36,280 bases of DNA from positions 1-36,280 of the forward strand of contig NZ_NIRT01000028.1 of NCBI RefSeq assembly GCF_003207795.1, written 5' to 3'. Numbering within the stretch: the first letter of the stretch is position 1; each line of letters opens with the position of its first letter. This document shows positions 8,189-27,859 of this stretch, piece after piece. A program made the translations under genes and the position numbers. Source of the stretch: Komagataeibacter nataicola. GTDB taxonomy: Bacteria > Pseudomonadota > Alphaproteobacteria > Acetobacterales > Acetobacteraceae. The notes under the pieces were generated by a model. The model searched no databases, was not told the DNA's origin, and saw only the letters and a list, made by a program, of their open reading frames with translations.

Positions 8189-8195
8189 GTCTGCC

Positions 8196-11658: not shown

Positions 11659-11678
11659 TATGACAGGGAGGCGATGAC

Positions 11679-11933
11679 ATGAGCATCACCACACTTTCAA
11701 GCCGCGAGTTTAACCAGGATACCAGCCGAGCCAAAAAGGCGGCAGCCGATGGACCGGTGTTCATCACCGACAGGGGCAGGACTGCCCACGTCCTCCTCAG
11801 CATTGAGGAATACCGGCGATTGACGAACCACCCACGAAAAATCGCGGACGCGCTGGCGATGCCGGGACTGGCAGATATCGAGTTCGACCCACCCCGCGCG
11901 AATATCACGCTTCGATCGGCCGATTTTTCTTGA
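11679..11933 (+). CDS. Type II antitoxin, Phd/YefM family
   Basis: An 84-residue protein starting MSITTLSSREFNQDTSRAKK. It contains the family segment GPVFITDRGRTAHVLLSIEEYRRL. The Phd fold dimerises through its N-terminal half to bind DNA, and the C-terminal tail (LADIEFDPPRANI) is expected to wrap and block the toxin. A GGGAGG site precedes the ATG. Its TGA stop overlaps the toxin ATG by one base, so the two are co-translated. The pair is likely to stabilise the plasmid by post-segregational killing. Confidence 0.9.
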   Translation: MSITTLSSREFNQDTSRAKKAAADGPVFITDRGRTAHVLLSIEEYRRLTNHPRKIADALAMPGLADIEFDPPRANITLRSADFS

Positions 11934-12361: not shown

Positions 12362-12373
12362 CTTGCGCGCCAC

Positions 12374-14113: not shown

Positions 14114-14395
14114 CGGACCCTCCAATGTGCGAAAAAGCCCGGAGCAACAGGGCAAAACAGGGTCGGCAAACATTGCCGAAGAAGAGGAAACATTGCTGGG
14201 AGAACGAAAAAATGCAGGAAAACCAACACCCCAACCGAGGCGCAATGTGCGCCCTTTTATCTCGCCTCTCATTCCCCATGCCCCAAAGTGCCTGTTCCAC
14301 CCTACCAGCACCCAATCCGCGATGCTGGTGCCTGCTCCAATGGCCGTGCGCGAACCACTGCAAACCGGCAAGGGAAAGGATGCGTGAACGCGTAT
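14114..14395. promoter_or_regulatory. Non-coding gap between relaxase and lytic transglycosylase, candidate oriT region
   Basis: About 280 bp without a supported gene, more A-rich than its flanks near 14190-14220 (GAACGAAAAAATGCAGG). It contains the perfect inverted repeat at 14239-14253 with a nic-like sequence. A relaxase gene starting immediately downstream on the minus strand is the usual context for oriT. No other structure was recognised. Confidence 0.4.
14239..14255 (+). other. oriT: Candidate oriT nic region with inverted repeat
   Basis: GGCGCA and TGCGCC form perfect 6-bp arms around ATG, and the plus strand continues to give GTGCGCCCT at 14247-14255. This 9-mer equals the core of the RSF1010/R1162 nic region (AAGTGCG/CCCT), as remembered from the family. 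It lies 126 bp upstream of the relaxase start. The match is short and the relaxase class is not proven to be the matching one. A terminator reading (hairpin followed by CTTTT on the plus strand) is the main alternative. Confidence 0.4.
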
Positions 14396-15112
14396 TCATG
14401 GCGTTGCCACCGATGCGGAAGAAGCGACAAAAAGCCCATCGGAAAGCGGCCTGACAGGTGCAAGACCATGCGCGATGATGTCACTTCGAACATCCTTCGA
14501 CGGCAGCTTCATTGCAACCGGAACGCCTTTCCTCGCGTCGTCCGATTGCATGACGAAAATCGGTGCACGGGTCCAGAACAGCGGATCAGGATGCGAAACC
14601 GGCAGCAACGATTCAGCACCGCCCTGACCGATCAGGGACAGCAATCCGGCGACATAGGCGCGCGTTTCGGGTGGCAGCGGACGTTGCCGATCACGGTAGT
14701 CCTCATAGCGCCCCGGCCCGGCGTTATAGGCTGCCAGGAAACCCGGCAAGCCGTAACGATCGTGCATCTCGCGCAGGAACGCAGCGCCCGCGAGGATGTT
14801 GTCATGCACATCGAACGGATCGCTTCCCAGCCCGTAACGGGTACGAAGGTCGCTCCAGGTCGCGGGCATGATCTGCATGAGGCCGAGCGCGCCTTTCGAT
14901 GAAATCGCGCCAATATCACCACCGCTCTCAGCGCTCATGACGGCCCGTATCCATGTGGCGGGAATGTTGAAGCGCTGCACGGCTTCAGCGATCACGGCAG
15001 CATAAGGATCGGTGTCAGCGGGCGCTGGAACCGATGCTGCCCGTGACGGATCGATGACGCCCGATACACCGATTGCAATGACACCAACAGCGAGGAAAAC
15101 CGTGCGTCGCAT
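14396..15112 (-). CDS. Conjugal lytic transglycosylase (VirB1/TrbN-like)
   Basis: A 238-residue SLT-fold muramidase that opens peptidoglycan for assembly of the transfer machine. A signal peptide (MRRTVFLAVGVIAIGVSGV) precedes the catalytic domain. The catalytic Glu is in AVMSAESGG, followed by KGALGLMQIMPATW and FLAAYNAGPGRYEDYR, the three standard SLT motifs. The start at 15112 opens the signal peptide; eight extra codons upstream overlap the DUF736 gene. It follows the DUF736 gene in the repA-traF chain. Confidence 0.9.
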   Translation of the reverse strand: MRRTVFLAVGVIAIGVSGVIDPSRAASVPAPADTDPYAAVIAEAVQRFNIPATWIRAVMSAESGGDIGAISSKGALGLMQIMPATWSDLRTRYGLGSDPFDVHDNILAGAAFLREMHDRYGLPGFLAAYNAGPGRYEDYRDRQRPLPPETRAYVAGLLSLIGQGGAESLLPVSHPDPLFWTRAPIFVMQSDDARKGVPVAMKLPSKDVRSDIIAHGLAPVRPLSDGLFVASSASVATP

Positions 15113-15116
15113 GGTC

Positions 15117-15455
15117 TCATTCCCCGCGTTCGACACGCCGTGACGGACGCGTCCAGTTCAGCACCCAGACCGCACGCTCCCCACCGGCACGGAAGAGATT
15201 GGCACGGATCGGCTGTGCAAAGGCGGGGTCGTCGAGGGCTACGGCGATGTATTCACCAGCCCTCTCGCCGGTGCGTTTCCAGCCAGCACCAACCTCCGGG
15301 CCATCGGCATCGGTGAGATGGATGCGGTAATCCGGGGCATGTTCGGCGTCGGAAAACTCGGCCGGAACGAGAAGGATATCCTGCGCCACGGTGAGGGTGC
15401 GGATGCGCCCGGCAAAACCGGTTTTCGTGCGCGTGAAAAGACCGATCTGTGCCAT
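15117..15455 (-). CDS. DUF736 family protein (copy 1)
   Basis: A 112-residue DUF736 protein starting MAQIGLFTRTKTGFAGRIRT and containing HAPDYRIHLTD, GAGWKRTGERAGEYIAVALD and DDPAFAQPIRANLF, the usual conserved stretches. Function is unknown; the family is strongly linked to alphaproteobacterial plasmids and integrative elements. It starts 1 nt after the traF stop. A second intact copy lies at 20336-20659 and a decayed one at about 20964-21253. Confidence 0.9.
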   Translation of the reverse strand: MAQIGLFTRTKTGFAGRIRTLTVAQDILLVPAEFSDAEHAPDYRIHLTDADGPEVGAGWKRTGERAGEYIAVALDDPAFAQPIRANLFRAGGERAVWVLNWTRPSRRVERGE

Positions 15456-15456
15456 T

Positions 15457-16014
15457 TCATTGCCCTTTCGGGGACGGATTGAAGGTCACGGTGACAGGCT
15501 GCCTGCTCCCGGACAGAAGCCAGACCGGGGTGGCGCGACCGATGACGGTGGACAGGGGCAACAGGCCAAAATACCGACCGTCGAGACTGCGTGGCTCGGC
15601 CGGGTTCATGACGAAGAGCTGGTCTGGAGCGAGGTGCTGGCACCCCTGCCAGACGGGCAATGGACGGCCCCGGTGATCGAGGGATTGCGCATCGCCTGCG
15701 AATTTTCCGTCGATGGTGACGCGCTGCCCGGTACGGCACACGGACTGCCCCGCGACAGCCGCTACGGGCTTGAGCAGGGGAACAGCGAGAGGAAGGTAAC
15801 CGCGCGTTGCAAGCAGCCTCGCCTCGCGCTCGGGCAGGCGGACAGCGACCAGATCACCGACATGCGGCGCGGGAACCGGGTGCAATCGGTAGAGCCCGAC
15901 GGGCACGCTCGCCGTCTCGTTCCAGATCAGGCGTGGCGCAGGATGAACGACCATCGACGCGCCAACACCGAGCACGGCGAAATAGGTCGCAAAGAACCAG
16001 CCACGCCGGGTCAT
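15457..16014 (-). CDS. traF: S26-family signal peptidase, TraF-like
   Basis: A 185-residue S26 serine peptidase. An N-terminal membrane anchor (GWFFATYFAVLGVGASMVV) is followed by the catalytic Ser region SVPVGLYRLHPVPAPHVGD and the general-base Lys region in LLKPVAAVAGQSV. TraF of RP4 processes and cyclises the TrbC pilin, and a TrbC gene is present in this window. The start at 16014 overlaps the DUF2840 stop (ATGA). The order repA-DUF2840-traF-DUF736 is a recurrent chain in such plasmids. Confidence 0.92.
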   Translation of the reverse strand: MTRRGWFFATYFAVLGVGASMVVHPAPRLIWNETASVPVGLYRLHPVPAPHVGDLVAVRLPEREARLLATRGYLPLAVPLLKPVAAVAGQSVCRTGQRVTIDGKFAGDAQSLDHRGRPLPVWQGCQHLAPDQLFVMNPAEPRSLDGRYFGLLPLSTVIGRATPVWLLSGSRQPVTVTFNPSPKGQ

Positions 16015-16508
16015 GACATCACCTGCCGCCGCTTGAGCCATGCTGAATGCTGCTCGCGCGTATAGGCACGCGGCTCATGTCCGGCCGTGATGCGATGGTG
16101 CAGATGCCGCCAGTATTCGGGCGCCGCATCCGCCGGATCGAGACCCAGCGCCTCAATGGCGTCGACCACCCGAAGCACATGTTCGACCCGTGGCCAGCTA
16201 TCGACACGCAGGAGGATTTCGCCGCCGGGACGCACGAACGGCAAAGTCTGGAACACTTCGCCAGCCCTGACCGCGCGCACGATATCCAGCCGGGAGACGG
16301 TGATACCGAGGTCATTGGACGCCCAGCGCACAAAGGCGAAAACACTTCCTGGCGCAAAACTGGAAATGCGACGGCGGTCATCAAGTATCTGCTCGTCGCT
16401 GCAATGCCCGAAGCGCAGCCAGTGTTCGATGCGCCTGTCGATCCAGGTCAGTTCGACATGCGTCAGTGCCGCCGGATGCCGATGGGAGATGGGAGGATGC
16501 CGGGTCAT
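16011..16508 (-). CDS. DUF2840 domain-containing protein
   Basis: A 165-residue protein with THVELTWIDRRIEHWLRFG, then PGSVFAFVRWASNDLGI and PGGEILLRVDSWPRV, the pattern of DUF2840. Function is unknown. It lies between repA and traF with 4-nt overlaps at both ends, implying coupled translation. The start at 16508 was chosen because it overlaps the repA stop; the 14 upstream codons lie within repA. Confidence 0.88.
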   Translation of the reverse strand: MTRHPPISHRHPAALTHVELTWIDRRIEHWLRFGHCSDEQILDDRRRISSFAPGSVFAFVRWASNDLGITVSRLDIVRAVRAGEVFQTLPFVRPGGEILLRVDSWPRVEHVLRVVDAIEALGLDPADAAPEYWRHLHHRITAGHEPRAYTREQHSAWLKRRQVMS

Positions 16509-17584
16509 GGCCCGTCTCCCGGCCCCGTGAAGGGGGCAATGGACGGGCAAGAGGGGTTATCCGCAGAACGGCGCTTCCCATCAACATAAGAGTTAGAGTC
16601 TAAGTTAGATAAGTTAAGGGCCGGAATCGCCGTTTCAGGCCAAAGACTTAGCTGGGGTTTGTGCGTGTGAAGTCCCGATAGTCCTGCGTGTGATGTCCCG
16701 ATAGTGGATGCGTGTGATGTCCTGATACTATTCACATAATTATCCACAGGATGTGTGGATAAGTCGGTTGGCAGGATGCGCAACAACTCGCGCACGCCGG
16801 CACGCTCAATGCTCAGGCGATAGCCTGGCAAGGGCTGGCTGGCGGCGGCACGCCGGATCTGGATGGCAAAGTCCGAGGGACGCATCAGGCTGCCGGATTT
16901 CTGGTGCAGATGCCCGATCTCGAAAGTCCAGCCGGTAGGTTGGCGACCCGCGTGTTTGCGGGCCACGCGGTAAAGCCAGCGCTCGATGCCGCCCGTCAGC
17001 CGGAAATAGGCCGGGTCGATGGCCAGCACCAGCGACCGGTCGATCACGCCACGATAGAGCCATTCCGGAATGACGATCTCGACACCAGCGGCGCGACCGT
17101 TGCGGCTGGCGCAGATTTCCCACTCGGTAATCCAGGAAAACTGCTGCCGTCGCCAGTTCTGGCCGTGGCGGATCGTGGTGGCGACCACGGTGGACTGGAG
17201 CCGGGCAAGTGCCGCCCTGAGGAGCCCATAATCCCGCGCCCCGGTCTGTCGGCCAATACCGGTGAGCAACTGGTAGGGGGTGAAGCGCAGGAAGCGTGAC
17301 GTTGTAAGGCCGAGATTTTCCGCCTCGACAATCTGGCTGGCAGCCCAGATCAGCACGTCAGCGTCCCAGATCGTCGCCATGCCGTGCTCGGGCATCCCGA
17401 ACACCTCGACGCGCGTGTCCCCTGCCGCGTAGAGGATTGGCGTCGTGCGCTTCGTTTTGGACAGCGAGAAAAACGGTCGCTCCATCAGATCGCGCTGGTC
17501 GCGCGGGCTGATCTCGCCACTGGCGACAACGAACGGCAGGAGCCTGCTGCGCTCGCTGGCCGTGAGGGTATGACGGGCCTGCAT
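16505..17584 (-). CDS. repA: Replication initiator protein RepA (RPA family)
   Basis: A 359-residue plasmid replication initiator. The RPA-family body is visible: ERPFFSLSKTKRTTPILYAA, then WDADVLIWAASQIVEAENLG, RFLRFTPYQLLTGIGR, GLLRAALARLQSTVVATTIR and TGGIERWLYRVARKHAG. The C-terminal 80 or so residues are unusual because their DNA carries iteron-like repeats (SIRTSHASTIGTSHAGLSG is repeat-encoded) and DnaA boxes. The start at 17584 has AGG at good spacing in GGGGAGG; the ATG two codons upstream abuts that sequence. Its stop overlaps the DUF2840 start. Confidence 0.9.
   Translation of the reverse strand: MQARHTLTASERSRLLPFVVASGEISPRDQRDLMERPFFSLSKTKRTTPILYAAGDTRVEVFGMPEHGMATIWDADVLIWAASQIVEAENLGLTTSRFLRFTPYQLLTGIGRQTGARDYGLLRAALARLQSTVVATTIRHGQNWRRQQFSWITEWEICASRNGRAAGVEIVIPEWLYRGVIDRSLVLAIDPAYFRLTGGIERWLYRVARKHAGRQPTGWTFEIGHLHQKSGSLMRPSDFAIQIRRAAASQPLPGYRLSIERAGVRELLRILPTDLSTHPVDNYVNSIRTSHASTIGTSHAGLSGLHTHKPQLSLWPETAIPALNLSNLDSNSYVDGKRRSADNPSCPSIAPFTGPGDGP
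16662..16731. repeat. Three iteron-like direct repeats inside repA
   Basis: Plus-strand units start at 16662, 16685 and 16709 (spacing 23 and 24 bp). Each begins TGCGTGTGA(A/T)GTCC and continues (C/T)GATA. The third unit is the least conserved. Tandem repeats with a period near two helix turns, next to DnaA boxes and within the initiator gene, are what iterons look like. They are presumably bound by RepA. Confidence 0.75.
16740..16762. promoter_or_regulatory. oriV: Inverted pair of perfect DnaA boxes (candidate oriV)
   Basis: TTATCCACA at 16740-16748 and its exact reverse complement TGTGGATAA at 16754-16762 are separated by 5 bp. Both match the DnaA-box consensus without mismatch. They begin 9 bp after the iterons, and the nearby TTCACATAATTA is locally AT-rich. 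Together these give the core of an iteron-type replication origin located inside the repA reading frame. Confidence 0.75.
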
Positions 17585-17597
17585 GTCCATCCTCCCC

Positions 17598-17849
17598 TCA
17601 CCGGCGATCAAGGCCGGCGGAGCGGGCCTCGTCATAATTCGGATCAGACGTGGACCGGCAGGCGCTGGCGGCAGCCCAGGCGTCGAGGTCGTCGATCAGG
17701 TAGACGACACGACCGCCAAGCTTGCGGAAGGTCGGGCCACTGCCATGGCAGCGGTATTTCTCCAGCGTGCGGGGAGAAAGGCCAAGAATCTGCGCGGCCT
17801 GATGTGTGCGCAGGTAGCGCGCCGGTGACGGCGCGTGTCTGTCGAGCAT
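17598..17849 (-). CDS. Helix-turn-helix protein (AlpA/MerR-type) upstream of repA
   Basis: An 83-residue DNA-binding protein. RYLRTHQAAQILGLSPRTLE and then KYRCHGSGPTFRKLGGRVVY form the winged HTH typical of excisionase/AlpA-like proteins, followed by LIDDLDAWAAASA. GGAGG lies six bases before the ATG. It ends 13 nt before repA. Short HTH proteins in this place are a regular part of RPA-type replication regions and may control repA; the exact role is not known. Confidence 0.85.
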   Translation of the reverse strand: MLDRHAPSPARYLRTHQAAQILGLSPRTLEKYRCHGSGPTFRKLGGRVVYLIDDLDAWAAASACRSTSDPNYDEARSAGLDRR

Positions 17850-18069
17850 GGTATACCTCCATCTGGTCTCGAAGCGCCGCGGGGATGGTGCGGCGGATCG
17901 GGATGACGGTGGCGGAGAAAGCGGGCGTTGGGGGTGGACGAAGATTTTTCGAGGTCAGTGTCCACCCCCGCGCGTCGGAGCGTATGCAGGAGGTGCCGGG
18001 CGGAGCCGGACGTGAAGCAGCGTGAGGAAAATGGGGGAAAGCAGCGGGAAGGAGCGAAAACCGGCTATG
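17850..18069. other. Leader region upstream of the HTH-repA unit
   Basis: A 220-bp gap with no supported gene. It contains the perfect 10-bp inverted repeat at 17930-17969. It is the only space for the promoter of the HTH-repA-DUF2840-traF chain. No clear -35/-10 pair was identified. Confidence 0.4.
17930..17969. promoter_or_regulatory. Inverted repeat in the repA leader
   Basis: GGGGGTGGAC at 17930-17939 and GTCCACCCCC at 17960-17969 are perfect 10-bp arms around a 20-bp loop, which itself can form a small CGAA/TTCG hairpin. It lies 80-120 bp upstream of the HTH start. It could be an operator, an attenuator or part of a countertranscript-type copy-number control. The sequence does not decide between these. 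Confidence 0.5.
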
Positions 18070-18856
18070 TTATCGCCCGCGTAAAAAATCCAGATAGCCG
18101 CCGCTGACCCGGTTCCGGGCGTCAAGAAGCAGGCGCTCCGCATGGCGACGCGCCGCCGTGTTGCGCCATTCGACCGCCGGTAAAGCGGCCTGCCATGAAC
18201 GATTGACCGCGATGGCGATATCACGGGTGGTGCCGCCCGCTTCGTGAATATCGAAGGCGAGCAGGAGCTGCATCTGCCGCGCGCGCTGCAGCGGCGTGAG
18301 TTGAAGAGCGCGCGGAAGCAGGCCAACGCGCTGACCGCGCTGCCTGCGAAAGAAACGCAGCGCCACGTCGAGACGCAGTTCGGCGGCGTCATCCATCGGC
18401 AGAAGCACAGCGGGGCGACCGATGGCCAGCGGGTTCAGAAGCCGGAGGTAAAGATCGCCCGTCGCATCGCCGATCACCAGCCACGTGTCGTCTTCCGCAT
18501 CATGACGGGCCAGGATGGTTCCGAGCACCGCCGGATTGATCGGGGTCACAATGGCGAAATCCGGTGGCGCGGGTGTGAGGATCAGCGTGGCCGGTGAAAC
18601 CTCGGGCCGCCAGACCATGCGCCCCTGAGGAGCGGGCTTATCGGGCGCATGGACAAAAACAGAGCCCCCAGCGTTGGGCGAACGCCGCGCACTCGGCAGC
18701 GGAATCCACGCCCCGGCGGCCAAGCCGCCGTTGCAGACGGGCATAATCGCGGCGATAGGTGGTGTTACGGCGGAGAAATTCGACGGCGAAACCGGAGCGG
18801 TCCAGACGGCTGATATGGTCGCGCAGTTCCGGTGAACGCCAGAAGGATGTGGGCAT
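18070..18856 (-). pseudogene. DUF6499-DUF2285 protein, frameshifted at a T5 run
   Basis: The N-terminal half starts MPTSFWRSPELRDHISRLDR at 18856 and includes GFAVEFLRRNTTYRRDYARLQ (DUF6499-like). It runs out of frame after RWGLCF. The rest continues in another frame as VHAPDKPAPQGRMVWRPE through to a DUF2285-type C-terminus (WRNTAARRHAERLLLDARNR, then GGYLDFLRGR). Removing one T from the five-T run (plus-strand A 18655-18659) restores one frame of about 261 codons. Both halves are otherwise well conserved. The causes could be recent inactivation, a sequencing error in the homopolymer, or slippage expression. The intact family is taken to be a plasmid-linked DNA-binding protein of unknown role. 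Confidence 0.75.
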
Positions 18857-18933
18857 ACGGGCCTCCCTGTCTGTCCCCCATGCGGCAAAAGGGGGAGATT
18901 CCATCAGCCAGATCGGAAACGGGAGTGCATAGA

Positions 18934-19992: not shown

Positions 19993-20052
19993 CGTCCTGC
20001 TCCTTTCGTTTCTCGAAGACAGGACGCACGGCTCATGCCGGGGCGGACCGGG

Positions 20053-20162
20053 TCAAGGATCGCCGCAGGCGACCGGCTCGCCGGCGCGTGGGGGAGCCGA
20101 TTTTGTTCGGCGTGCCCGGCACGGGTGCGTCGGGCAAAATTGGGGGGACCACGCGTCCTTGA
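20053..20162. other. Nested imperfect palindrome upstream of the 45-residue gene
   Basis: Several arm pairs are nested. TCAAGGA (20053-20059) pairs with TCCTTGA (20156-20162), CGCGTGG (20085-20091) with CCACGCG (20149-20155), and ATTTTG (20100-20105) with CAAAAT (20135-20140). A central CGTGCC-c-GGCACG lies at 20111-20123. The three inner pairs share nearly the same centre. G- or C-rich tracts on each side do not pair. It lies 93 bp upstream of the small gene on the minus strand and could be a leader RNA, an operator or a recombination/transfer site. No protein was supported here. Confidence 0.5.
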
Positions 20163-20277
20163 CGCGGTTCGCCCTCGCGCATGGTACAATGGGAAGGCTA
20201 AGGGAAAGCCTCGTGTTCCTCCTGCGTCCCACGTGGGGCGACCAGGATTGCCACCCACACCCCGGAAAAGCACGTGG

Positions 20278-20335: not shown

Positions 20336-20659
20336 TCAGTCCCCGTTCCGGCTGCGGGGCCGGGTCCAGATCAGGGAGTAGCCCTCGCCGTCCTCGTCGG
20401 TGAACAGGTTTGCGAAGATCGGGGCGGCGAAAGAGGGATCATCCAGCTTCAGGCTCAGATAGGTGCGCCCTTCGCTGGAGCGGCGGGTCCAGGCCGCACC
20501 GAGTTCAATCCTGCCCAGATAGACGCGGTAGTTGGGGGCGTTGTCGTTGGGACGGTTGGTTTCGGCCACCAGCCGGACGTTGCGGGCCTGCAGGGCCAGG
20601 GTGACGATTTCGCCTTCGAAGCCTTCGCCCACCTTCTTGAAGGAACCGATGTTAGCCAT
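20336..20659 (-). CDS. DUF736 family protein (copy 2)
   Basis: A 107-residue protein starting MANIGSFKKVGEGFEGEIVT. It contains DNAPNYRVYLGRIELGAAW, SSEGRTYLSLKLDDPSFAAP and a YSLIWTRPRSR end, all typical of DUF736. Function is unknown. It is only distantly similar to copy 1. A cloverleaf-like inverted repeat lies 119 bp upstream of the ATG, and a decayed inverted copy of the gene lies beyond it. A strong terminator follows the stop. Confidence 0.92.
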   Translation of the reverse strand: MANIGSFKKVGEGFEGEIVTLALQARNVRLVAETNRPNDNAPNYRVYLGRIELGAAWTRRSSEGRTYLSLKLDDPSFAAPIFANLFTDEDGEGYSLIWTRPRSRNGD

Positions 20660-20777
20660 TGTCGTGTCTCCATGCTGTTATCGGGCCGCGACCACCGTGG
20701 CCTCGATGGCGATCGACCAGCCGGAGGCGAGCGGCAGAGCACCCTTCAGGGCCGCAGCGCAGCGGAGGACGGCAGGG

Positions 20778-20837
20778 CCGGAACTTTCTTGTCTCGCGAG
20801 GAATGACGGCGCAGCCGTCAGGGGAAGAAAGTTCCGG
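20778..20837. other. Structured element E1 upstream of DUF736 copy 2
   Basis: The outer arms CCGGAACTTTCTT (20778-20790) and AAGAAAGTTCCGG (20825-20837) pair perfectly over 13 bp. Inside are the self-pairing CTCGCGAG (20793-20800) and a 7-bp stem TGACGGC/GCCGTCA with triloop GCA (20804-20820). The whole can fold as a three-way junction. A matching element with different stem sequences (E2) lies at 22485-22547. E1 ends 119 nt from the DUF736 ATG. The sequence between element and gene shares CCTGCC(G/A)TCCTCC(G/A)CTGCG with the E2 leader. Confidence 0.7.
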
Positions 20838-20963
20838 AACGCCGTTGCGGCCAGCCGATCGAGGCGCAGCCGGTCTTCGGCTAGATCAGCCATCCAACAG
20901 AGGCCATGGTGTGCGGACCCGACAGCCCCCCAGGAGAGACGATGCCGGCATGACCGGTCCGAC
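20838..20963. other. Gap between E1 and the decayed DUF736 copy
   Basis: About 126 bp of GC-rich sequence. A minus-strand frame of 129 codons crosses it but also runs through E1 and has no recognisable protein features. I see no supported gene, and a small GCCGGTCTTCGGC hairpin is the only local structure. Confidence 0.3.
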
Positions 20964-21253
20964 AGGTGGGGAACGTGCGACACAGAAGAATATCGCGCTC
21001 GCCCGGTGCGACCGTCTTCCATGCTGGTGACACGGGCTGCGGCCTGACACCCGCCCCCGACTGCCACGTCCCTGCTGCGAACGGTTCGGGCCGCATCCTA
21101 CGGACCCGTCGTTCCAACGAAGGCCTGCCAGCCGGTTGCCCGCTGGACGATCCCTCCTTCGCCGCTGCTGTTTCGACCTGTTCACCGCCGAGGAAGGGGG
21201 CCACCGCCTCCCTCATCCATCGTCCCCGCAGTTGGAATGGGGCGAAAGGTCAC
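20964..21253 (+). pseudogene. Decayed DUF736 gene (copy 3), inverted
   Basis: The plus strand carries a degraded DUF736 frame: APDCHVP, then RTRRSNEG, LDDPSFAA and SLIHRPRSWNGAKG. These align in order and spacing with APNYRVY, WTRRSSEG, LDDPSFAA and SLIWTRPRSRNGD of copy 2. The stretch FDLFTAEEGGHR (matching FANLFTDEDGEGY) is in a neighbouring frame, so two compensating indels are present. The N-terminal third is barely recognisable and its start is approximate. It lies head to head with copy 2, with E1 between them. Confidence 0.65.
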
Positions 21254-21424
21254 GCCCCGCACCCGTTCTCTCCGGGTGGGGCCTCCCGGCGCGCGGGCAG
21301 TCCCGTTTGCTTCAACCGGAAGCGCGGGCAACGGGGAGCCCGACGGATACTTCTGATCGATCGACGCTCAGCGAAAAATCGTAAGCAGCGATCATCGTTT
21401 TCGGGATGTAGTCGAAAGAGACAA
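21254..21424. other. Gap downstream of the DUF736 relic
   Basis: About 170 bp without a supported gene. It holds GC-rich repeats of CCCG/CGGG type and a more AT-rich piece near 21370-21415 (GCGAAAAATCGTAAGCAG). I see no further function. Confidence 0.3.
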
Positions 21425-21440
21425 TGGCGCTTACGCGCCA
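21425..21440 (-). terminator. Possible terminator at the DUF2493 stop
   Basis: TGGCGC and GCGCCA pair perfectly around TTAC. On the minus strand the stem is followed by TTGTCTCTTTCG, a weak T-rich tail. It overlaps the end of the DUF2493 gene. Confidence 0.4.
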
Positions 21441-22366
21441 CTATCCTTGCGAAACCTCCAGACCGGGATGCCTATCTGTTTCGCCTTGTCGGCCAGATTA
21501 TCCTGAATACCGGAACCCGGAAACACCATGACCCCGATGGGCAGGACTTTCAGCAGGGCGTCGTTGCGCCGGAACGGGGCGGCCTTGCCGTGCCGGTTCC
21601 AGTCAGGTTTGAAGGCAATCTGCGCGACATCACGATGATCGGCCCAGCGGGAAGCGATGAATTCCGCTCCCTTGGGCGAGCCACCATGCAGCAACACCAT
21701 ATCGGGGTGCTTCTCCCGCACCTTGTCGAGACGGTTCCAGATCAGGTGATGGTCCTCGTAGTCGAGCCCGCCGGTGACCGCGACCTTCGGTCCGGGGGGC
21801 ACGAGCAATTCGGTTTCGGCCTTGCGGCGGGCGTTGAGGAAATCGCGGCTGTCGATCATCGACGCCGTCAGGGTGCTGCGGCTGACCAGCGAACCGGAAC
21901 GTGGCCGCCAGGGCGACATCGTCAGGCGTTCGAACTGGTCGCAGGCCAGGTCGCGGAAGATCTCGTAAGCATTGCGTCGCTCCAGCAGGGTCAGGCCCTC
22001 GGCGATGAGGCGCTCCAGTTCCACCGAGCGGATCTCGCTGCCATCCTGCTCCTGCTGGCTGCGTTTCTGCGCCACCTCGTTGCGGTCAAGATCACGCTCT
22101 ACCTGCCCGACCATGCGGTGAAAGACGTTGACCGTGGACCAGAGCAACGGTTCGAGATCGGGTTCCAGCCGCGTGTCCGTCAGAGTGGCTGACAGGGCGT
22201 CGAAGATATCGGCAACCGCGCCCTCGATCTGGCTGGCGTCGGGCAGCGGCCTCGCGTCCGGCTCGTCCTCAAACGGACGGTGGCCGTAAAGCTGAAGTTC
22301 CGTCAGCACATGGGCGGTGGAAGAGGTAGCGTGGGCGGGTTCGAAATCGTCCTGTGTGCGGGTCAT
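21431..22366 (-). CDS. DUF2493 domain-containing protein (SLOG-like)
   Basis: A 311-residue protein. An N-terminal helical region (TELQLYGHRPFEDEPDARPL) is followed by a C-terminal DUF2493 Rossmann-like domain. That domain shows KVAVTGGLDYEDHHLIWNRL, MVLLHGGSPKGAEFIASRWA and LPIGVMVFPGSGIQDNLADK, the nucleotide-ligand-binding layout of the YspA/SLOG superfamily. The ATG at 22366 has GGAGG upstream; the upstream extension is rejected. Element E2 lies 119 nt before the start. The function in plasmids is unknown; SLOG proteins often sense nucleotide-derived ligands. Confidence 0.88.
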   Translation of the reverse strand: MTRTQDDFEPAHATSSTAHVLTELQLYGHRPFEDEPDARPLPDASQIEGAVADIFDALSATLTDTRLEPDLEPLLWSTVNVFHRMVGQVERDLDRNEVAQKRSQQEQDGSEIRSVELERLIAEGLTLLERRNAYEIFRDLACDQFERLTMSPWRPRSGSLVSRSTLTASMIDSRDFLNARRKAETELLVPPGPKVAVTGGLDYEDHHLIWNRLDKVREKHPDMVLLHGGSPKGAEFIASRWADHRDVAQIAFKPDWNRHGKAAPFRRNDALLKVLPIGVMVFPGSGIQDNLADKAKQIGIPVWRFRKDSGA

Positions 22367-22484
22367 GGGTCTGTCCTCCGGTTCTGGCCGCGCCCCTCGC
22401 GGCCTTTCCGGGGGCGGATAGCGGCAGACGAGGGCCGGGCCGGAACCGCGCAACGCGCGGCCGGAACGCAGTGGAGGATGGCAG

Positions 22485-22547
22485 GGAGACGGCTATTTTG
22501 CTTCGCGATGCAAAGCGCGGCACGCGCGGCGGAAAATAGCCGTCTCC
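22485..22547. other. Structured element E2 upstream of DUF2493
   Basis: Outer arms GGAGACGGCTATTTT (22485-22499) and AAAATAGCCGTCTCC (22533-22547) pair perfectly over 15 bp. Inside are TTCGCGAT flanked by GC/GC and a 5-bp stem GCGCG/CGCGC with triloop GCA. This matches E1 in order, loop sequence and central TCGCGA, while the outer stem sequence is quite different, so pairing is kept by compensatory change. E2 ends 119 nt from the DUF2493 ATG. Confidence 0.7.
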
Positions 22548-22678
22548 GCCATTGCAGGCCCGGTCTGGCTGACGCCCGCTCCCCTTCCTGAAAGGCCGCG
22601 GGCGCGCCCCATCAGGAAATGGGACAGCCCCCGCACGGCAGGAAACGACGATGACCCTCCTCCCTTTCCCGGCCCGCC
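22548..22678. other. Gap between E2 and the Toprim gene
   Basis: About 130 bp of GC-rich, pyrimidine-rich sequence after the Toprim stop. I see no gene, clear terminator or repeat in it. Confidence 0.3.
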
Positions 22679-23758
22679 TCAGTGCGTGACCGGATGCAGG
22701 AACCGCACCACGTCCTGCGGGGCAAGCTGGGGATGCAGGATCGCCCGCATCGCCCCACGCCCGAGATAGCGGAGATCATCGTTGAAATCTGCCAGACGCG
22801 GTGACAGCACAAGGCATTCGATCCCGGCCTCCTGCGTCCGGGCCTGCAGGGTCATCACCGCATGATCCCCGGCCGGATCATCATCGCGCAGCACGTAGAG
22901 GCGGCGCAACGTGAACGGAAACATCAGGGCGGCGAGATGCGCCGAGGACAGGCAGGCGGCCAGTGGCAGAGCGGGCATGATCTCATGGAGCGACAGCGCC
23001 GTCTCGATCCCCTCGCCCGCGGCCAGAACGTCGGACACCATGCCAAAGCGTACGGCGTGGCCGAGCAGGTCACCCATCGCCCGACGGGGCATGGCGACGG
23101 GGGCCTTGCCTTTTCCGTCCCGCGCCAGCCAGGTACGATGAATACCGGTGACGCGGCCATTCAGATCGGTGACAGCGGCGATCAGCGCGGGCCATGTCTC
23201 AGTCGGACTATCGGCATCGACGCGATAGTAGCAATCCGAGTGGAAACGCAGGGACGACAGGTCCGTCAGGCGGGTCAGGTCACGATGCCGCAGCCAGGTT
23301 TCCGCCCGTGTGCCCGCAATCGGGCGGGACATGGACCAGAGCCGACGTGCGGCGTCTGCGGTGCCAGATGCCTGCCCCGAAGTATCGTGGCTGAACGCAT
23401 GGGAACGGCCGCGATCAGGGGCCGATCGTGGCTCGGACTGCGGCAGACAGAGAAAGCGCCGGGCCTCGTCGGCGACATCACGAAAATCCAGCAGCCCGAG
23501 GCTTTCACGGATGATGTCGAGCAGATCGCCATGCTGTCCCGTCGCGCCATCCGTCCATTTCCCCGCGCGACCACGCCCGTCCGGTCCACCATGCAGGCGG
23601 ACATAGAGCGACCGCCCCGGGGTGTTATGAACATCCCCGACCAGCCAGTAATTGCCGTGCCGTCGCCCGGCCGAGAGGTAATGGCGACAGACCGCCTCGG
23701 CGTTCTCGGCCAGCCTGCGGGCCAGATCGCCAGCACCCCATGATTGCGTATCTGTCAT
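22679..23758 (-). CDS. Toprim domain-containing protein (DUF7146-type primase-like)
   Basis: A 359-residue protein starting MTDTQSWGAGDLARRLAENA. The N-terminal half resembles plasmid primase-like proteins: YLSAGRRHGNYWLVGDVHN, then GAGKWTDGATGQHGDLLDII, with A replaced by R in this copy. The Toprim domain shows VLAAGEGIETALSLHE (the catalytic Glu) and RLYVLRDDDPAGDHAV (the DxD). It may act on plasmid or incoming single-stranded DNA, for example as a primase; that is inference. The start at 23758 is preceded by GGGAGG. Confidence 0.85.
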   Translation of the reverse strand: MTDTQSWGAGDLARRLAENAEAVCRHYLSAGRRHGNYWLVGDVHNTPGRSLYVRLHGGPDGRGRAGKWTDGATGQHGDLLDIIRESLGLLDFRDVADEARRFLCLPQSEPRSAPDRGRSHAFSHDTSGQASGTADAARRLWSMSRPIAGTRAETWLRHRDLTRLTDLSSLRFHSDCYYRVDADSPTETWPALIAAVTDLNGRVTGIHRTWLARDGKGKAPVAMPRRAMGDLLGHAVRFGMVSDVLAAGEGIETALSLHEIMPALPLAACLSSAHLAALMFPFTLRRLYVLRDDDPAGDHAVMTLQARTQEAGIECLVLSPRLADFNDDLRYLGRGAMRAILHPQLAPQDVVRFLHPVTH

Positions 23759-23847
23759 CTCACCCTCCCTGCAGGCTTGATGCCGCCATGATTCCCCCGT
23801 AACGGCAGAGGCAACGGGCACAGGCCCGAATGCAAAAGGATAGTTTC

Positions 23848-24123
23848 ATGAAGATTGCCGATCTGGTCGATCATATCGCCACCACCACCGACACGAGCAA
23901 GACCGATACCCGCAAGGTGCTGGACGCCCTGATCGAGGCGATGACCACTGCCGCCAAGGCCGGTGATGAAATCACCCTGCCAAACTTCGGCAAGTTCAAG
24001 GTCAGGGAAGTCGCCGCCCGCGAAGGCCGCAACCCGGCCACGGGAGCGACCATCCAGATCGCGGCCTCGCGCAAGCTGGCCTTCACGCCCGCCAAGGCGC
24101 TCAAGGACAACCTGAACGACTGA
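23848..24123 (+). CDS. HU-family DNA-binding protein
   Basis: A 91-residue histone-like protein starting MKIADLVDHIATTTDTSKTD. The family signature EITLPNFGKFKVREVAAREG, then RNPATGATIQI, is clear. HU proteins bend and compact DNA and can assist replication or recombination; a plasmid-encoded copy may cover the plasmid or act at its origin. AAAGGA lies seven bases before the ATG at 23848, so the six upstream codons are rejected. It is the only plus-strand gene in this block and converges with DUF932. Confidence 0.95.
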   Translation: MKIADLVDHIATTTDTSKTDTRKVLDALIEAMTTAAKAGDEITLPNFGKFKVREVAAREGRNPATGATIQIAASRKLAFTPAKALKDNLND

Positions 24124-24140
24124 CCTGCCGACAGGCAAAA

Positions 24141-24163
24141 GGCGGCGGACCTCGTCCGCCGCC
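24141..24163 (+). terminator. Hairpin terminator after the HU gene
   Basis: GGCGGCGGAC and GTCCGCCGCC form perfect 10-bp arms with a CTC loop, 17 bp after the HU stop. The following CCTTCCCC is pyrimidine-rich but not a T run. It lies between convergent genes and may serve both. Confidence 0.6.
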
Positions 24164-24200
24164 CCTTCCCCATCATGCCACTTTCTGATGATGGGCGCGT

Positions 24201-25403
24201 TCATCCGACCTTCTCCATCAGCTTGCGTGCCCTGCCCTCCAGATCCAGTCGTGTGTCCTGGTTGGTCTTCGTACGGGCCAACGCCGTAATTCCCTGTACG
24301 AAATCGAACACGCTCTCGGGCTTGCGTCCCTCCTCGTTCAGCACTGTTTCGATGATCCTGGTGGTTTCCGGTTTGGAGAACCCACGACGACGCAGGAAAC
24401 TTTCCCGATCTTCGTCGGTTTTTGCCACCAGCGCTCGACGCGAGGCCTGAATGCCCGAGACAAACGACGCCGGGCTAGCCGTGGCGAAATTCCGCAGGGC
24501 CGGTGTGGCCTGATGCACGAAACGCGAGGCCGCGAACTTGCTATGCCGGATCGTGATCTGTTCGAAATTTTCTACGCCCCACAAAAGGCGGTTTTGACAC
24601 ACCCCACGCAGATAGAATGACGCAATGCCGAGGCTCTTGCTGCCAACTTCGGAATTCCAGGCATAGAAGCCCCGGAAATAGAGATCGGGATCGCCGTTGG
24701 GCAGACGCCCGGCTTCGATCGGGTGTGTATCATCCACAAGGAACAGGAACACGTCCCTGTCTGACGCATACAGCGTCGTAGTTTCCTTGGTGATATCCAC
24801 ATACGGATTATGGGTCATGGTGGCCCAGTCGATCACACCCGGCACCTTCCAGTTGGTATCACCTGTGCCGTTACCGGCAATTTTCCGCACCGCACCGACC
24901 AGTTCATGGTCCCAGATGCGGCCGTAATCGGGGCCGGTCACGGCGCGCAGTTCTACGCGTCCGTCCTCGGTTTCCAGCGTCTTGACCAGCTCGGCCCGGT
25001 GCGACAGCAGCCCGTGCTGCAGATTGATCGCCGCCAGTGGGGCCGGCAGGTTACGCAGGTACGACGATGGCGCGCCGACCAGGCTGCACATCTGGCCAAA
25101 CGACCAGTGCGTGGGCGCAACCGGGTCATTCTGCCCCGGCACGGTCAGGGTCAGGCGCTCGGCATTGTCGCGCGAGGCCTCGACGCGAATGGCGCGGCTT
25201 TCCACCGTACGGGCGGTGGCCCGATCCGCCCGCGCCAGTGTGGCGGCATGCAGGTCGGACAGCGACAGGTAGCGCTCGTCATCGGGCCGCGAGAACCATT
25301 CGGACGAGACGCGGGCGCTACGCTCCCCACGCGAAGGATCGATCCGGAAGCTGCCGGACGCGGCGCCACGGGACGCAGGGGGCAGGATGGTGGTTGTGGT
25401 CAT
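24201..25403 (-). CDS. DUF932 domain-containing protein
   Basis: A 400-residue protein starting MTTTTILPPASRGAASGSFR. DUF932 features include LTVPGQNDPVAPTHWSFGQM, SYLRNLPAPLAAINLQHGL and ELRAVTGPDYGRIWDHELV, plus TTLYASDRDVFLFLVDDTHP and SFYLRGVCQNRLLWG. DUF932 proteins are common on plasmids and phages, and a link to DNA maintenance has been proposed but is not settled. GAGGAG lies before the ATG at 25403; the 39 upstream codons overlap the parB terminator. Confidence 0.92.
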   Translation of the reverse strand: MTTTTILPPASRGAASGSFRIDPSRGERSARVSSEWFSRPDDERYLSLSDLHAATLARADRATARTVESRAIRVEASRDNAERLTLTVPGQNDPVAPTHWSFGQMCSLVGAPSSYLRNLPAPLAAINLQHGLLSHRAELVKTLETEDGRVELRAVTGPDYGRIWDHELVGAVRKIAGNGTGDTNWKVPGVIDWATMTHNPYVDITKETTTLYASDRDVFLFLVDDTHPIEAGRLPNGDPDLYFRGFYAWNSEVGSKSLGIASFYLRGVCQNRLLWGVENFEQITIRHSKFAASRFVHQATPALRNFATASPASFVSGIQASRRALVAKTDEDRESFLRRRGFSKPETTRIIETVLNEEGRKPESVFDFVQGITALARTKTNQDTRLDLEGRARKLMEKVG

Positions 25404-25481
25404 GGAAAACTCTCCTCTATGCCGGTTATTCGGCACCCAAGGCGAAGCCGCCCTCTCCCTCTTTCCGGGACACCGGACATG

Positions 25482-25513
25482 AAAAAAGCGGCTTCCGGTC
25501 ACCGGAAGCCGCT
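25482..25513 (-). terminator. Intrinsic terminator of parB
   Basis: AGCGGCTTCCGGT and ACCGGAAGCCGCT form perfect 13-bp arms with a one-base centre, directly followed on the minus strand by six T. It lies 28 bp after the parB stop and before DUF932. Confidence 0.88.
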
Positions 25514-25541
25514 GTCTCAAAGTTCCTAGATCTCATAAGGG

Positions 25542-27623
25542 CTACTCGGCGGCGATGGCCTCCATACCCTCGTCCACCGTTGCCGTTTCAACCGACACCT
25601 GCTCTGCACCACCTGTCGTGCGCAACGCTTCGGGCAGCCAGCCCGAACCATCGAGCAGCCGCTCGGCCTCGCGCGCCATGTCGGGCTTCTTCAGGTGGGC
25701 AATACGGTCAGCCGCCTCGTCACCGCGTGCTTCCCGCACCGCCTGCAGGATGCGGGCCTTGGTGACGCGCCCGAGATAGTTCTCGACCGTGGGCTGCCAG
25801 CCTGCCTCCACCAGATCGAGGCTGAGGGCAGATGCCAGACGGTCTGCACGCTTGAGACGTTCGGTGACGCTGCGCTGGGACACCGCGCCATAGGCGGGCA
25901 TGCGCTCGTAGAGCGCGTTGATGCCGAAGGACAGGCAATGCGCTAGCAGTGCCATGCGGCTGGCATCGTCCAGCCCGTCGATCCAGCACCACAGCGCATC
26001 CTCGTCCTCGGGCAGATCGTGCTTCCAGCCCTCGTTGCGCTGGCGCAGCGCGTGGACTGGCAGGCTGCCCGGCATGTCGGGCGACTGGACCGGCAGCGGG
26101 ATTTCCCGGACATAGGCTTCAAGGCAATCCGCACCCGGCGTCTGCCAGTAAACATCACGCACCAGCGTATGCAGGAATTCAGTCAGGGCGATATGCGGGT
26201 TGCTGGCAAACGCGTCCCGAAGGGCCAGCGTGCGCCAGGCCGTCAGTTCGGTGAGCAACCGGTCTGGCAGCGGCTTGATCCCGTCTTCCTCCTCGGGTTC
26301 GACGTCGGGAGAGATACCGTCGCCCTCCCCATCCTCATCATAGCCATGGCCTGTGGTATCGTCGTCGTGCTGATCATGCGGATGATGACCGTATTCATCG
26401 GCGCTGCCCGCATCATCGGTCTCTTCGGGCTCGGCCGGCATGTCCTCGGGCAGGACGAAGCCCCGCTCCACCTGCAGCGTGCCATCACTGTCGAGGCTGA
26501 CGAACGCCCCCGCCCGCGCCATGTCAGCGGAATCGAACGTCAGGGGCCGTTCTTCCAGGGCAAGAATGGCCTGTTCGATCTCGCCCAGCCGCGCCTCGAC
26601 CTCGTCCGGATATTCATCGGCCTGGGCGTATTCAGCCTCGATACTTTCCTGCTCGGTATGAAGGGCCTCGAGACGGGCCGTCTCTTCATCGGTCAGGGGC
26701 ACTTCCGTGCCATCGATCTCGACGAACTGCCGTGTGTGACCCCATGGGAAAGATAGGGCCGTCTCGACCCATTTCCAGCCCTCGGCGCGGATATCCTCTG
26801 CGGCTGCATGCAATTTTTCCATGACCAGCCGGTCCACAATAGCCGGATCCTGCAGCCAGCCGCCGTCATCGGCCTCGAACAGGTCGCGCATGACGTGGCC
26901 ACCCGCTACGATATAGGCCTCCAGCCCGACGAAACGGGCACGGGCATCCGAAACCCGCACGGTCTTCTCCGTCAGCATGCGGCGAATGACATAGGGTTCA
27001 CGGTTATGGCTCTGGGACACGATGTCCCAGACCTGTTCCTGGCGGGCGTGGTCATCGCTGATGGAAAAGGCCATCAACTGCTCCAGCTTCATGCCATCCT
27101 GCTCATAGATATCCAGCAGCGTGTCGGAAACGGTCATCAGCCGCAAACGCTGTTTAACCACGGCCGGTGCGACAAAGAACGCTGCGGCGATTTCCTCTTC
27201 AGACATGCCTTTTTCCAGCATGTCACGGAAGGCACGAAACTGATCCAGCGGGTGCAGGGCCACGCGCTGGACGTTTTCGGCCAGGGAGTCGTCCTCGGCG
27301 AGAATGGCCGATCCGGCCTCGCGCACCACGCACGGTACCGAGGCCGTCTTTGCCAGCTTCTTCTGCTTCACCAGCAGTTCGAGGGCACGGAAGCGCCGGC
27401 CGCCAGCGGGCACTTCATAGGTGCCGGTCTCGGTTCCTTCGTCATTCAAAACGGGACGGACATTCAGGCTCTGCAGCAGCCCGCGGCGCTCGATGTCGCG
27501 GGCCAGTTCCTCGATCGACAGGCCGGACTTCACGCGCCTCACGTTGGACTGGGACAGCGCCAGCCGGTTGAACGGGATGTCACGGGACGAACTCAGGCTG
27601 ATTTTGGGAATAGCGGTCGCCAT
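25542..27623 (-). CDS. parB: ParB/RepB/Spo0J-family protein, large plasmid type
   Basis: A 693-residue ParB-like protein. The N-terminal domain shows LALSQSNVRRVKSGLSIEEL, YEVPAGGRRFRALELLVKQK (GGRR motif) and ILAEDDSLAENVQRVALHPL (the SLAENxQR motif). The HTH region follows with MSEEEIAAAFFVAPAVVKQR. An acidic, His-rich low-complexity stretch (about residues 394-448) separates it from a long C-terminal region. This size and layout are typical of ParB-like proteins on alphaproteobacterial plasmids and integrative elements; such proteins may have roles other than classical partition. No parA lies next to it. Confidence 0.9.
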   Translation of the reverse strand: MATAIPKISLSSSRDIPFNRLALSQSNVRRVKSGLSIEELARDIERRGLLQSLNVRPVLNDEGTETGTYEVPAGGRRFRALELLVKQKKLAKTASVPCVVREAGSAILAEDDSLAENVQRVALHPLDQFRAFRDMLEKGMSEEEIAAAFFVAPAVVKQRLRLMTVSDTLLDIYEQDGMKLEQLMAFSISDDHARQEQVWDIVSQSHNREPYVIRRMLTEKTVRVSDARARFVGLEAYIVAGGHVMRDLFEADDGGWLQDPAIVDRLVMEKLHAAAEDIRAEGWKWVETALSFPWGHTRQFVEIDGTEVPLTDEETARLEALHTEQESIEAEYAQADEYPDEVEARLGEIEQAILALEERPLTFDSADMARAGAFVSLDSDGTLQVERGFVLPEDMPAEPEETDDAGSADEYGHHPHDQHDDDTTGHGYDEDGEGDGISPDVEPEEEDGIKPLPDRLLTELTAWRTLALRDAFASNPHIALTEFLHTLVRDVYWQTPGADCLEAYVREIPLPVQSPDMPGSLPVHALRQRNEGWKHDLPEDEDALWCWIDGLDDASRMALLAHCLSFGINALYERMPAYGAVSQRSVTERLKRADRLASALSLDLVEAGWQPTVENYLGRVTKARILQAVREARGDEAADRIAHLKKPDMAREAERLLDGSGWLPEALRTTGGAEQVSVETATVDEGMEAIAAE

Positions 27624-27859
27624 GGCGAAAACTCCATGACGGGCGGACAGGAGACTCTCTCCCATCCTCTCAACCCGTCACGAAAATCCGCGCAGCCCTC
27701 TGACTCTAAAAGCTCCGGACACGCCCAAAATCCGCAGCCTTTTCCCGGCAGGAAACGACAGCAATGGCGAATGTCTGGAATTGAGAAGAAATCAGAGAAA
27801 CCGGGCAATGTAAAAGAAAAGCACGACCAGGTTTTAATTATGGATTTCGAAACAAATAC
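27624..27859. other. Gap at the backbone/island junction, parB promoter region
   Basis: About 236 bp between the parB start and the LysR stop. Base composition shifts here from GC-rich backbone to AT-richer island. It must contain the parB promoter. No insertion-sequence end or attachment-site repeat was recognised. Confidence 0.4.

Follow-up and report, generated by a model that had tools for sequence, protein, structure and literature searches.

A family of structured elements before leading-region-type genes of alphaproteobacterial plasmids, probably acting in single-stranded DNA during conjugative entry

What kind of signal is formed by two hairpin elements, E1 and E2, that precede two genes of a Komagataeibacter nataicola plasmid, and which strand folds? 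The window analysed here is the whole 36,280-nucleotide stretch of contig NZ_NIRT01000028.1. A preliminary description had proposed either a family of structured 5' mRNA leaders or a protein-binding DNA element, used in common by plasmid backbone genes.

Both elements read on the minus strand. E1 has its core at 20778-20837 and E2 at 22485-22547, both recognised by the covariance model R1. The outer stem, P1, is perfect in each, as first described, with 13 bp in E1 (arms 20825-20837 and 20778-20790) and 15 bp in E2 (22533-22547 and 22485-22499). Within P1, E1 carries a C-rich strand, CCCC (20821-20824), a 7-bp hairpin, P2 (20804-20820), and TTCCTCGCGAGAC (20791-20803); in E2, P2 has 5 bp (22515-22527) and is followed by TTTGCATCGCGAAGC (22500-22514). 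TCGCGA is present in both elements, and both P2 hairpins have a TGC loop on the minus strand. E1 and E2 are the sole perfect inverted repeats in the whole window whose arms have 13 bp or more and whose spacer is 15-60 nt; any such repeat turned up in 7 of 200 first-order-Markov shuffles.

The element extends beyond what was first reported: a further helix, P0, and flanking boxes belong to it. Upstream of E1 (20841-20848, minus strand) stand GCAA (20845-20848) and the 5' strand of P0, CGGC (20841-20844), and downstream (20764-20773) the 3' strand, GCCG (20770-20773), and a TCCTCC box (20764-20769). The corresponding parts of E2 are GCAA (22552-22555) and TGGC (22548-22551), together 22548-22555, and GCCA (22479-22482) and TCCTCC (22473-22478), together 22473-22482. 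Between the two elements P0 thus shows a compensatory change from C-G to U-A. A motif noted earlier as shared by the two leaders does occur in both, but it consists of P0' plus the UCCUCC box, and its G/A variants are the compensating side of the overlooked helix. With up to 3 mismatches allowed, this motif, CGCAGYGGAGGAYGGCAGG, has two sites in the window where 0.06 would be expected, and its 17-nt core has one extra 1-mismatch site and 24 2-mismatch sites in the 3.67-Mb genome. A second shared leader motif, TCTGCCGCT, is likewise in both window leaders but was not seen by eye in the other family leaders inspected.

E1 and E2 had been taken to be members of one family, and this was borne out. 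The covariance-model search for further copies, put forward as a test in the preliminary description, was carried out with a model trained without E2; it recovered E2 (39.2 bits, E=4e-9; E1, being in the training set, scores 86 bits) and, among 385 genomes sampled from the class, identified copies in 28, with a maximum of nine per genome. Members occur in rhizobia, agrobacteria, acetic acid bacteria and sphingomonads, on plasmids as well as on integrated elements. In two bacterial families the element was present in 104 of 247 and 53 of 199 genomes, and an order-level search gave matches in 1 of the 7 genomes reached. The family is widespread and apparently undescribed: searches of the open-access literature returned no title or abstract opening describing such elements in alphaproteobacteria, and nothing linking DUF736 with an RNA motif or Frpo with alphaproteobacteria.

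The consensus runs GCAA, P0 (4 bp), P1 (13-15 bp), C-rich strand, P2 hairpin, UUCCUCGCGARRC, P1', P0', UCCUCCGCU. Its structure is retained as the sequence diverges. Indeed, in a sequence-only alignment (n=15), 85.4% of the P1/P2 cells are paired and 15 of 20 pairs show two-sided change; shuffles reached such values in 0 of 500 cases on four of five measures and in 5 of 500 on the fifth. For P0, whose anchoring used the motif alone (143 of 183 copies, the other 40 being left out), pairing is 78.7% in register, compared to 12-40% when slid. For P1 the figures are 81.0% and 29-37%, the former biased upward by a 5' anchor chosen for pairing. The outer half of P1 is almost free to vary, and the distance between its arms follows the length of P2.

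In the window, E1 stands before a DUF736 gene (107 aa; 20336-20659, minus strand; Pfam PF05284, 5.5e-34) and E2 before a DUF2493/YAcAr (SLOG) gene (21431-22366, minus strand; PF10686, 1e-29). The distance of 119 reported for both holds as a position difference, to 20659 and 22366, but 118 nt lie between element and start codon (20660-20777 and 22367-22484), and the exact equality is partly luck, since spacings in the family mostly range from 106 to 127 nt. Of 86 non-redundant copies, 72 have their start codon within this range after P1 (median 119), the start codons having been chosen by an ORF scoring that adds a small bonus for starts 85-145 nt away. The genes behind these 86 copies encode DUF736 (58), DUF2493/YAcAr (13), ArdC (4), ParB (2) and a weak SSB-like protein (1); ArdA follows two further copies, outside the 86. 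A set of plasmid genes is therefore marked in common, as had been proposed, but it is narrower than the backbone and of leading-region type (DUF736, DUF2493, ArdC, ArdA, ParB), that is, of the type used by conjugative plasmids on arrival in a new cell.

Around E1 and E2, co-oriented putative leading-region genes occupy 22679-27665 on the minus strand: DUF7146/Toprim (22679-23821), a gene (24201-25520) whose match to DUF932, at 0.00022, is under the Pfam cut-off and whose product shows by BLASTP no DUF932 similarity to the F protein, and ParB (25542-27665), homologous to a ParB encoded in the leading region of F (27% over 673 columns, 3e-44, in a single comparison). Transfer and replication genes, also on the minus strand, lie at 658-18888, on the side to which the elements point; they include VirB8, TrbL/VirB6, VirB4-like, T2SSE/VirB11-like and TraG/VirD4 genes, a DUF3363 relaxase (12374-14371), RPA (16505-17635) and a RovC-like gene (18070-18888). 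Across the family, the gene is ahead of the element and co-directional with it in all 36 pairs with RPA, all 13 with the DUF3363 relaxase and all 8 with TraA. Ti-type TraG is ahead in 26 of 26 pairs, and the oriT core is ahead of all 7 elements in four stretches of Ti-type plasmids, whose transfer polarity is taken from an RSF1010-like nic. With TraG of the window type, 14 of 26 pairs point away from the gene; in 11 of these (G380, G168, G295) a relaxase is ahead and co-directional, and the element contigs of the remaining 3 (G105) yielded no relaxase. In every case with a located relaxase, the element points toward it.

Folding energy cannot tell which strand folds: the folds of plus-strand DNA include the hairpin, but the sense strands, as RNA, also fold better than shuffles. 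The mismatches tolerated in the stems are more telling. They were counted on the sense strand in 183 of 207 distinct copies, 24 that could not be anchored being dropped. In P1 the ratios of observed to expected were 0.21 for G.U, 0.62 for A.C, 1.16 for C.U and 0.30 for G.A, and among 55 non-redundant copies 0.23, 0.46, 0.94 and 0.40, respectively. Gains reconstructed by tree parsimony lean the same way (A.C 61 vs G.U 17; C.U 47 vs G.A 12; C.C 21 vs G.G 4), and the excess of A.C over G.U in P1 has p <=9e-5 under the leader's own mutation bias. Counts in P2, which ignore relatedness, are C.U 84 vs G.A 3, C.C 28 vs G.G 0 and A.C 8 vs G.U 1. The tRNA stems of the same genome, taken as a control, behave in the opposite way, with G.U in 18 cells and A.C in 2. 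A rank correlation with the stability of DNA mismatches was not significant (rho 0.67, p 0.07). Since mismatches in P1 are more often A.C than G.U, the strand that folds should be the complement of the sense strand. This complement would be the template and, in Ti-type plasmids, presumably also the transferred strand. Such a spectrum of mismatches is at odds with a folded mRNA, and suggests a fold in the incoming single DNA strand instead.

A precedent exists in Frpo, a single-stranded-DNA promoter that acts for ssb in F, according to Samuel et al. 2024 (PMC11541004). Such promoters are known from some conjugative plasmids, and have been sought, in that study and in PMC12826799, by BLAST from five known sequences and candidates derived from them. 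Our preferred reading, which we consider probable, is that the family is a cis signal of this kind, a Frpo-like promoter or initiation site working in single-stranded plasmid DNA as the plasmid enters a cell by conjugation. The transferred strand (the plus strand in this plasmid) would fold into the P0-P1-P2 hairpin with its conserved boxes unpaired, and would recruit host RNA polymerase or another initiating enzyme. The same strand would be read as template for the gene whose start lies some 119 nt downstream, so that DUF736, DUF2493/YAcAr, ArdC, ArdA, ParB and others could be expressed ahead of second-strand synthesis, as ssb is from Frpo in F. We infer three things here: the identity of the transferred strand in the window plasmid, folding in single-stranded DNA and a transcription start at the element. 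A scan for sigma-70 promoters found no match in 20500-22800 on either strand, and among the 183 copies 6 sense and 4 antisense sites; the same scan is blank for F upstream of ssb, and so speaks neither for nor against a promoter.

The closest competitor is a single-strand initiation (ssi) site, at which the folded transferred strand loads a primase, a primosome or a primer-making RNA polymerase for second-strand synthesis, its position upstream of a gene being secondary. Primosome or G4-type single-strand initiation sites are folded single-stranded DNA with conserved loops, and the evidence on the strand serves this explanation as well as it does a promoter; from its title, the paper of Masai and Arai 1997 has Frpo making transcripts and primers alike. 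We nevertheless hold it unlikely. Priming needs neither the distance of 106-127 nt to a start codon kept by 72 of 86 copies, nor several gene families downstream, nor several copies per genome, whereas the family copies are numerous and tied to start codons at near-fixed spacing.

It is less likely again that an RNA copied as the plus strand, antisense to the gene, folds and regulates it in cis. The mismatch asymmetry suits any plus-strand nucleic acid. Against this stand the gains in P1, where purine-purine mismatches on the plus strand (G.A 47 and G.G 21) are together about as frequent as G.T (61) although the tRNA control is dominated by G.U, and the near-fixed spacing to, and common orientation with, the sense gene, which such an RNA would not need. 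No plus-strand sigma-70 match occurs at E1 or E2, a weak test in that the scan misses the F region too. A folded plus-strand RNA would leave the same asymmetry of mismatches as folded plus-strand DNA.

A structured mRNA leader controlling the downstream gene, a riboregulator and the first proposal of the preliminary description, would account for the near-fixed distance to the start codon, the covariation, the folding of the sense RNA and the additional conserved leader sequence with its hairpin, P4. It resembles in these respects the cis-regulatory leaders of Rfam, structured, covarying and set at a near-fixed distance from the start codon. It is very improbable all the same, because G.U in P1 is depleted to a similar degree as other mismatches, with A.C and C.U better tolerated; tRNA stems show the reverse (in P1, G.U reaches 0.21-0.23 of expectation and A.C gains outnumber those of G.U by 61 to 17, the tRNA cells being 2 to 18), and the spectrum is wrong for sense RNA. 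In the comparison with Rfam that had been called for, neither the window nor any of 20 loci reached the gathering score of a family, and permissive scans gave low-score matches only. Among these, Pseudomon-Rho over E1 (19.7 of the 45 bits needed) and BASRCII26 (E 0.002 but 27 of 218 bits, away from the element) were set aside as chance; a 'DUF3085 RNA motif', also considered, found no support in the Rfam scans or in the literature search, which led to work on plasmid host range.

The other earlier proposal, a protein-binding DNA element, comes nearer than the mRNA leader, but as a double-stranded operator, at which a plasmid regulator binds inverted repeats before several genes of one module, it is the least probable of all, since P1 is nearly unconstrained in its outer half, the spacing of its arms shifts with P2, and the strand-asymmetric mismatches, unexplained by a duplex, together with the variable length of P2 argue for folded single-stranded template DNA.

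The single-stranded-DNA promoter or initiation site that we prefer shares several traits with Frpo and ssi sites: position upstream of establishment and anti-restriction genes of the leading region (ssb and anti-restriction genes for Frpo) that run one way, secondary structure in a single strand, and several copies per element. Promoters of the Frpo class are further marked by -35 and -10 elements in the stem, and by RNA polymerase transcribing the single transferred strand toward oriT under stimulation by SSB. The family differs from Frpo in shape and boxes (a small P0-P1-P2, CCCC, TTCCTCGCGARRC) and no -35/-10 pair common to its members was seen, in a scan that misses the F region as well; in a comparison by covariance model, the leading region of F (48000-68000) contained no match to R1 at an E of 10 or below. 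With more reserve, we suggest that the family could be a new class of single-stranded-DNA promoter, defining an 'arrival regulon' common to conjugative plasmids and integrated elements across the Alphaproteobacteria and in certain other members of the phylum, in which DUF736 and DUF2493/YAcAr genes may serve early establishment or anti-defence; the odds seem to us slightly against it. If the promoter reading is true, the single-stranded-DNA-promoter principle extends to the plasmids and integrated elements of all the bacterial groups named above, the element becomes a sequence tag by which leading regions and the polarity of transfer can be read, and the DUF736 and DUF2493 genes, common but so far without an explanation, are predicted to act at arrival. 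The asymmetry of mismatches can, besides, be used to ask which of the two strands folds at a structured locus. The leader hairpin P4 gives a mixed signal by this measure, with A.C 63 and G.U 34, yet G.G 45 and C.C 32.

On sequence grounds, E1 (20778-20837), the hairpin element before the DUF736 gene, and E2 (22485-22547), its counterpart before the DUF2493/YAcAr gene, belong to one family. Their positions, their perfect outer stems (13 bp in E1, 15 bp in E2), and the TCGCGA and minus-strand TGC triloop present in each were found in the sequence as the preliminary description had them. The gap to the start codon is 118 nt for both, and the window holds no other perfect inverted repeats of this size and spacing (such repeats appeared in 7 of 200 shuffles of it). 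The leader motif reported as common to both elements is real, with 2 sites in the window against 0.06 expected; at 1 mismatch, its core has a single further site genome-wide. It had to be recast as P0', the 3' strand of an extra helix P0, plus a TCCTCC box; where it differs by G/A between the elements, the change compensates for CGGC/TGGC in the 5' strand of P0.

A covariance model of the family, R1, trained on 15 DUF736-linked elements with E1 included and E2 left out, recovers E2 with 39 bits (E=4e-9); after these two, the best remaining match in the same genome has E=5. R1 matches 28 of 385 genomes in a class-wide sample (E <= 0.01; up to nine matches per genome), 31 of 299 in a phylum-wide sample (E <= 0.001; four of the 31 outside the class), and 104 of 247 and 53 of 199 in two families (E <= 1e-4). 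By BLASTN, the E1 leader matches 871 places in 654 plasmid records, 497 of these records being from Agrobacterium, Rhizobium, Bradyrhizobium and Sinorhizobium, and DUF736 is named in 37 of the 40 matches listed; the E2 leader matches 90 records. The window itself resembles an acetic acid bacterial plasmid, since identical DUF736 proteins are encoded on contigs of both Acetobacter and Komagataeibacter. Its minus strand carries T4SS genes, a DUF3363 relaxase gene and an RPA replication gene. A second DUF736 gene (15117-15455), adjoining S26 peptidase and SLT genes, has no R1 match in front of it, so that DUF736 as such does not imply an element.

Read on the sense (mRNA) strand, the element consists of GCAA, P0, a short gap, helix P1, a C-rich strand, helix P2, a TCGCG box, a C, P1', a gap, P0' and TCCTCCGCT. 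P0 has 4 bp and is separated from P1 by mostly 2-4 nt, and P1' from P0' by mostly 3-4 nt; among 143 P0-anchored copies its pairs include CGGC/GCCG (43), TGGC/GCCA (20), CCGG/CCGG (3) and CGGG/CCCG (2). The inner 7 bp of P1 are A/T-rich and its outer part is almost unconstrained in sequence. The 5' strand of P1 is followed by CCCC in 147 and by CCG in 34 of 183 anchored copies, while TCGCG is preceded mostly by TTCC or TTGCA and followed by three variable bases, the C and P1'. The invariance of TCGC, of CC after P1 and of C before P1' in the 183 copies is built in by the anchor requirement; the same three sites are also invariant in a 15-sequence alignment, whose members were chosen by a similar pattern. 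P2 varies in length, and in some copies it contains inserts of about 40 nt (loci L030, L041, L050 with 42 nt and L157 with 38 nt); those of L030, L041 and L050 are GC-rich and palindromic, which suggests the insertion of a small repeat into a loop that tolerates it. A further leader hairpin, P4, often GGCCGCGA..GGGCGCGGCC, lies about 60-110 nt past the start of P1', upstream of the start codon, and was found by a permissive search in 163 of 173 distinct leaders.

In a structure-blind MAFFT alignment of the 15 sequences, 85.4% of cells are paired, with two-sided change in 15 of 20 pairs. Of 500 shuffles, none reached the observed value on four of five measures and 5 did so on the fifth, which scores further pair types; with the partner displaced by 1-3 columns, pairing fell to 39-51%. 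The pattern that found these sequences demanded six complementary bases in inner P1, which biases that part to pairing; it did not demand outer P1, P2 or P0. With motif-only anchors, which 143 of 183 copies have, 78.7% of P0 cells are paired in register and 12-40% out of it. For P1 the values are 81.0% and 29-37%, the former leaning upward because the CC site that gave most Watson-Crick pairs served as 5' anchor and copies below 5/8 were removed; these choices are neutral between G.U and A.C.

Predicted plus-strand DNA folds contain the hairpin in both leaders, but sense-strand RNA folds of the leaders are likewise better than shuffles, so fold energy alone cannot pick the strand. Mismatches can be read for this purpose. 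In RNA, G.U is the usual non-Watson-Crick pair; indeed, in 29 distinct tRNAs, obtained from 30 of the genome's 46 tRNA matches, the acceptor and T stems gave 18 G.U cells and 2 A.C cells. P1, read as mRNA in the distinct copies (24 of 207, lacking anchors, left out), has observed/shuffle-expected ratios of 0.21 for G.U, 0.62 for A.C, 1.16 for C.U and 0.30 for G.A; in 55 non-redundant copies these are 0.23, 0.46, 0.94 and 0.40. Mismatch gains on the tree are 61 for A.C against 17 for G.U (36 against 5 in the inner nine pairs), 47 for C.U against 12 for G.A, and 21 for C.C against 4 for G.G. Mutation bias does not explain the A.C excess, since the leader's own substitutions predict an A.C share of 0.35-0.57 (p at most 9e-5). 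P2 in 171 copies, uncorrected for relatedness, has C.U 84 against G.A 3, C.C 28 against G.G 0 and A.C 8 against G.U 1. A.C, C.U and C.C of the sense strand are G.T, G.A and G.G on its complement, and the selected structure therefore appears to sit on the plus strand, from which the genes are transcribed. RNA of this strand in place of DNA would produce a similar mismatch pattern, whereas a double-stranded operator would not give one so strand-asymmetric.

A structure on plus-strand DNA would recall the Frpo promoters, which in certain plasmids express leading-region genes from single-stranded DNA (PMC11541004). The search described there used five known sequences and island candidates, and the main text does not contain the words Agrobacterium or rhizobia. 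In the F stretch used here, the ssb, anti-restriction, ParB and psiB genes are all co-directional, and the ParB is homologous to that of the window. F Frpo and the element family share the kind of position and probably the direction and a single-strand fold, but an R1 search of the F stretch detected no similarity. A scan for -35/-10 consensus boxes found none at E1 or E2, 6 sense and 4 antisense among 183 copies, and none upstream of F ssb either, so that it does not discriminate. For these reasons the element is likened to a single-stranded-DNA promoter, a predicted function that we regard as rather likely, and is not classed as an Frpo.

Orientation was determined by tblastn in the 41 loci that contain, besides an element, a gene for transfer or replication, counted as element-gene pairs. 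RPA (36/36), the DUF3363 relaxase (13/13) and TraA (8/8) lie ahead of the element and are co-directional with it. Ti-type TraG is ahead in 26/26 pairs, while window-type TraG is behind in 14/26; in 11 of those 14 a relaxase is ahead and co-directional, and for the other 3 (genome G105) no relaxase was found on the element contigs. Stretches of pNGR234a, pAt2788b, pRM41A and S. chiapasense pB contain 7 elements, all of them on the traG side and all with the oriT core, situated between traC and traA, ahead of them. The complement of the Ti-type core, TTGCG/CCCTTGG, is one that we take to resemble the RSF1010 nic. From this likeness, Ti-type transfer would pass traC, traD and traG before reaching the element genes, whose template would be the transferred strand; for the window we infer the polarity by analogy. 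The Ti plasmid oriT is described as flanked by traA and traC, and DUF736 genes as present on every element that this study compared (PMC8627217).

Among 89 non-redundant copies (P1 arms <85% identical), a downstream ORF was picked for 86, and its start codon lies 106-127 nt past P1 in 72 (median 119), the choice mildly favouring starts 85-145 nt away. Pfam assigns DUF736 to 58 of the 86, YAcAr to 13, ArdC to 4, ParB to 2 and, below the cut-off, an SSB-like domain to 1, the remaining few having a weak match or none; the sample is skewed to DUF736 because R1 was trained on DUF736-linked elements. ArdA follows two more copies, both of which had failed anchors. Small proteins of 76, 72 and 94 aa downstream of elements (L132:11645-11872, L205:2269-2484 and L224:6259-6540), from ORFs chosen by position, have no Pfam match and are candidate new early-expressed genes.

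Directly past DUF736, at 20034-20183, lies a 150-nt, almost fully paired, multi-branched hairpin that R1 does not match. Its plus-strand DNA fold has z -7.2 (0 of 200 shuffles as good), and BLASTN against the collected loci gave 53 alignments; those listed include 31 distinct ones, at 82-100% identity. It is a candidate oriT or second kind of single-strand element.
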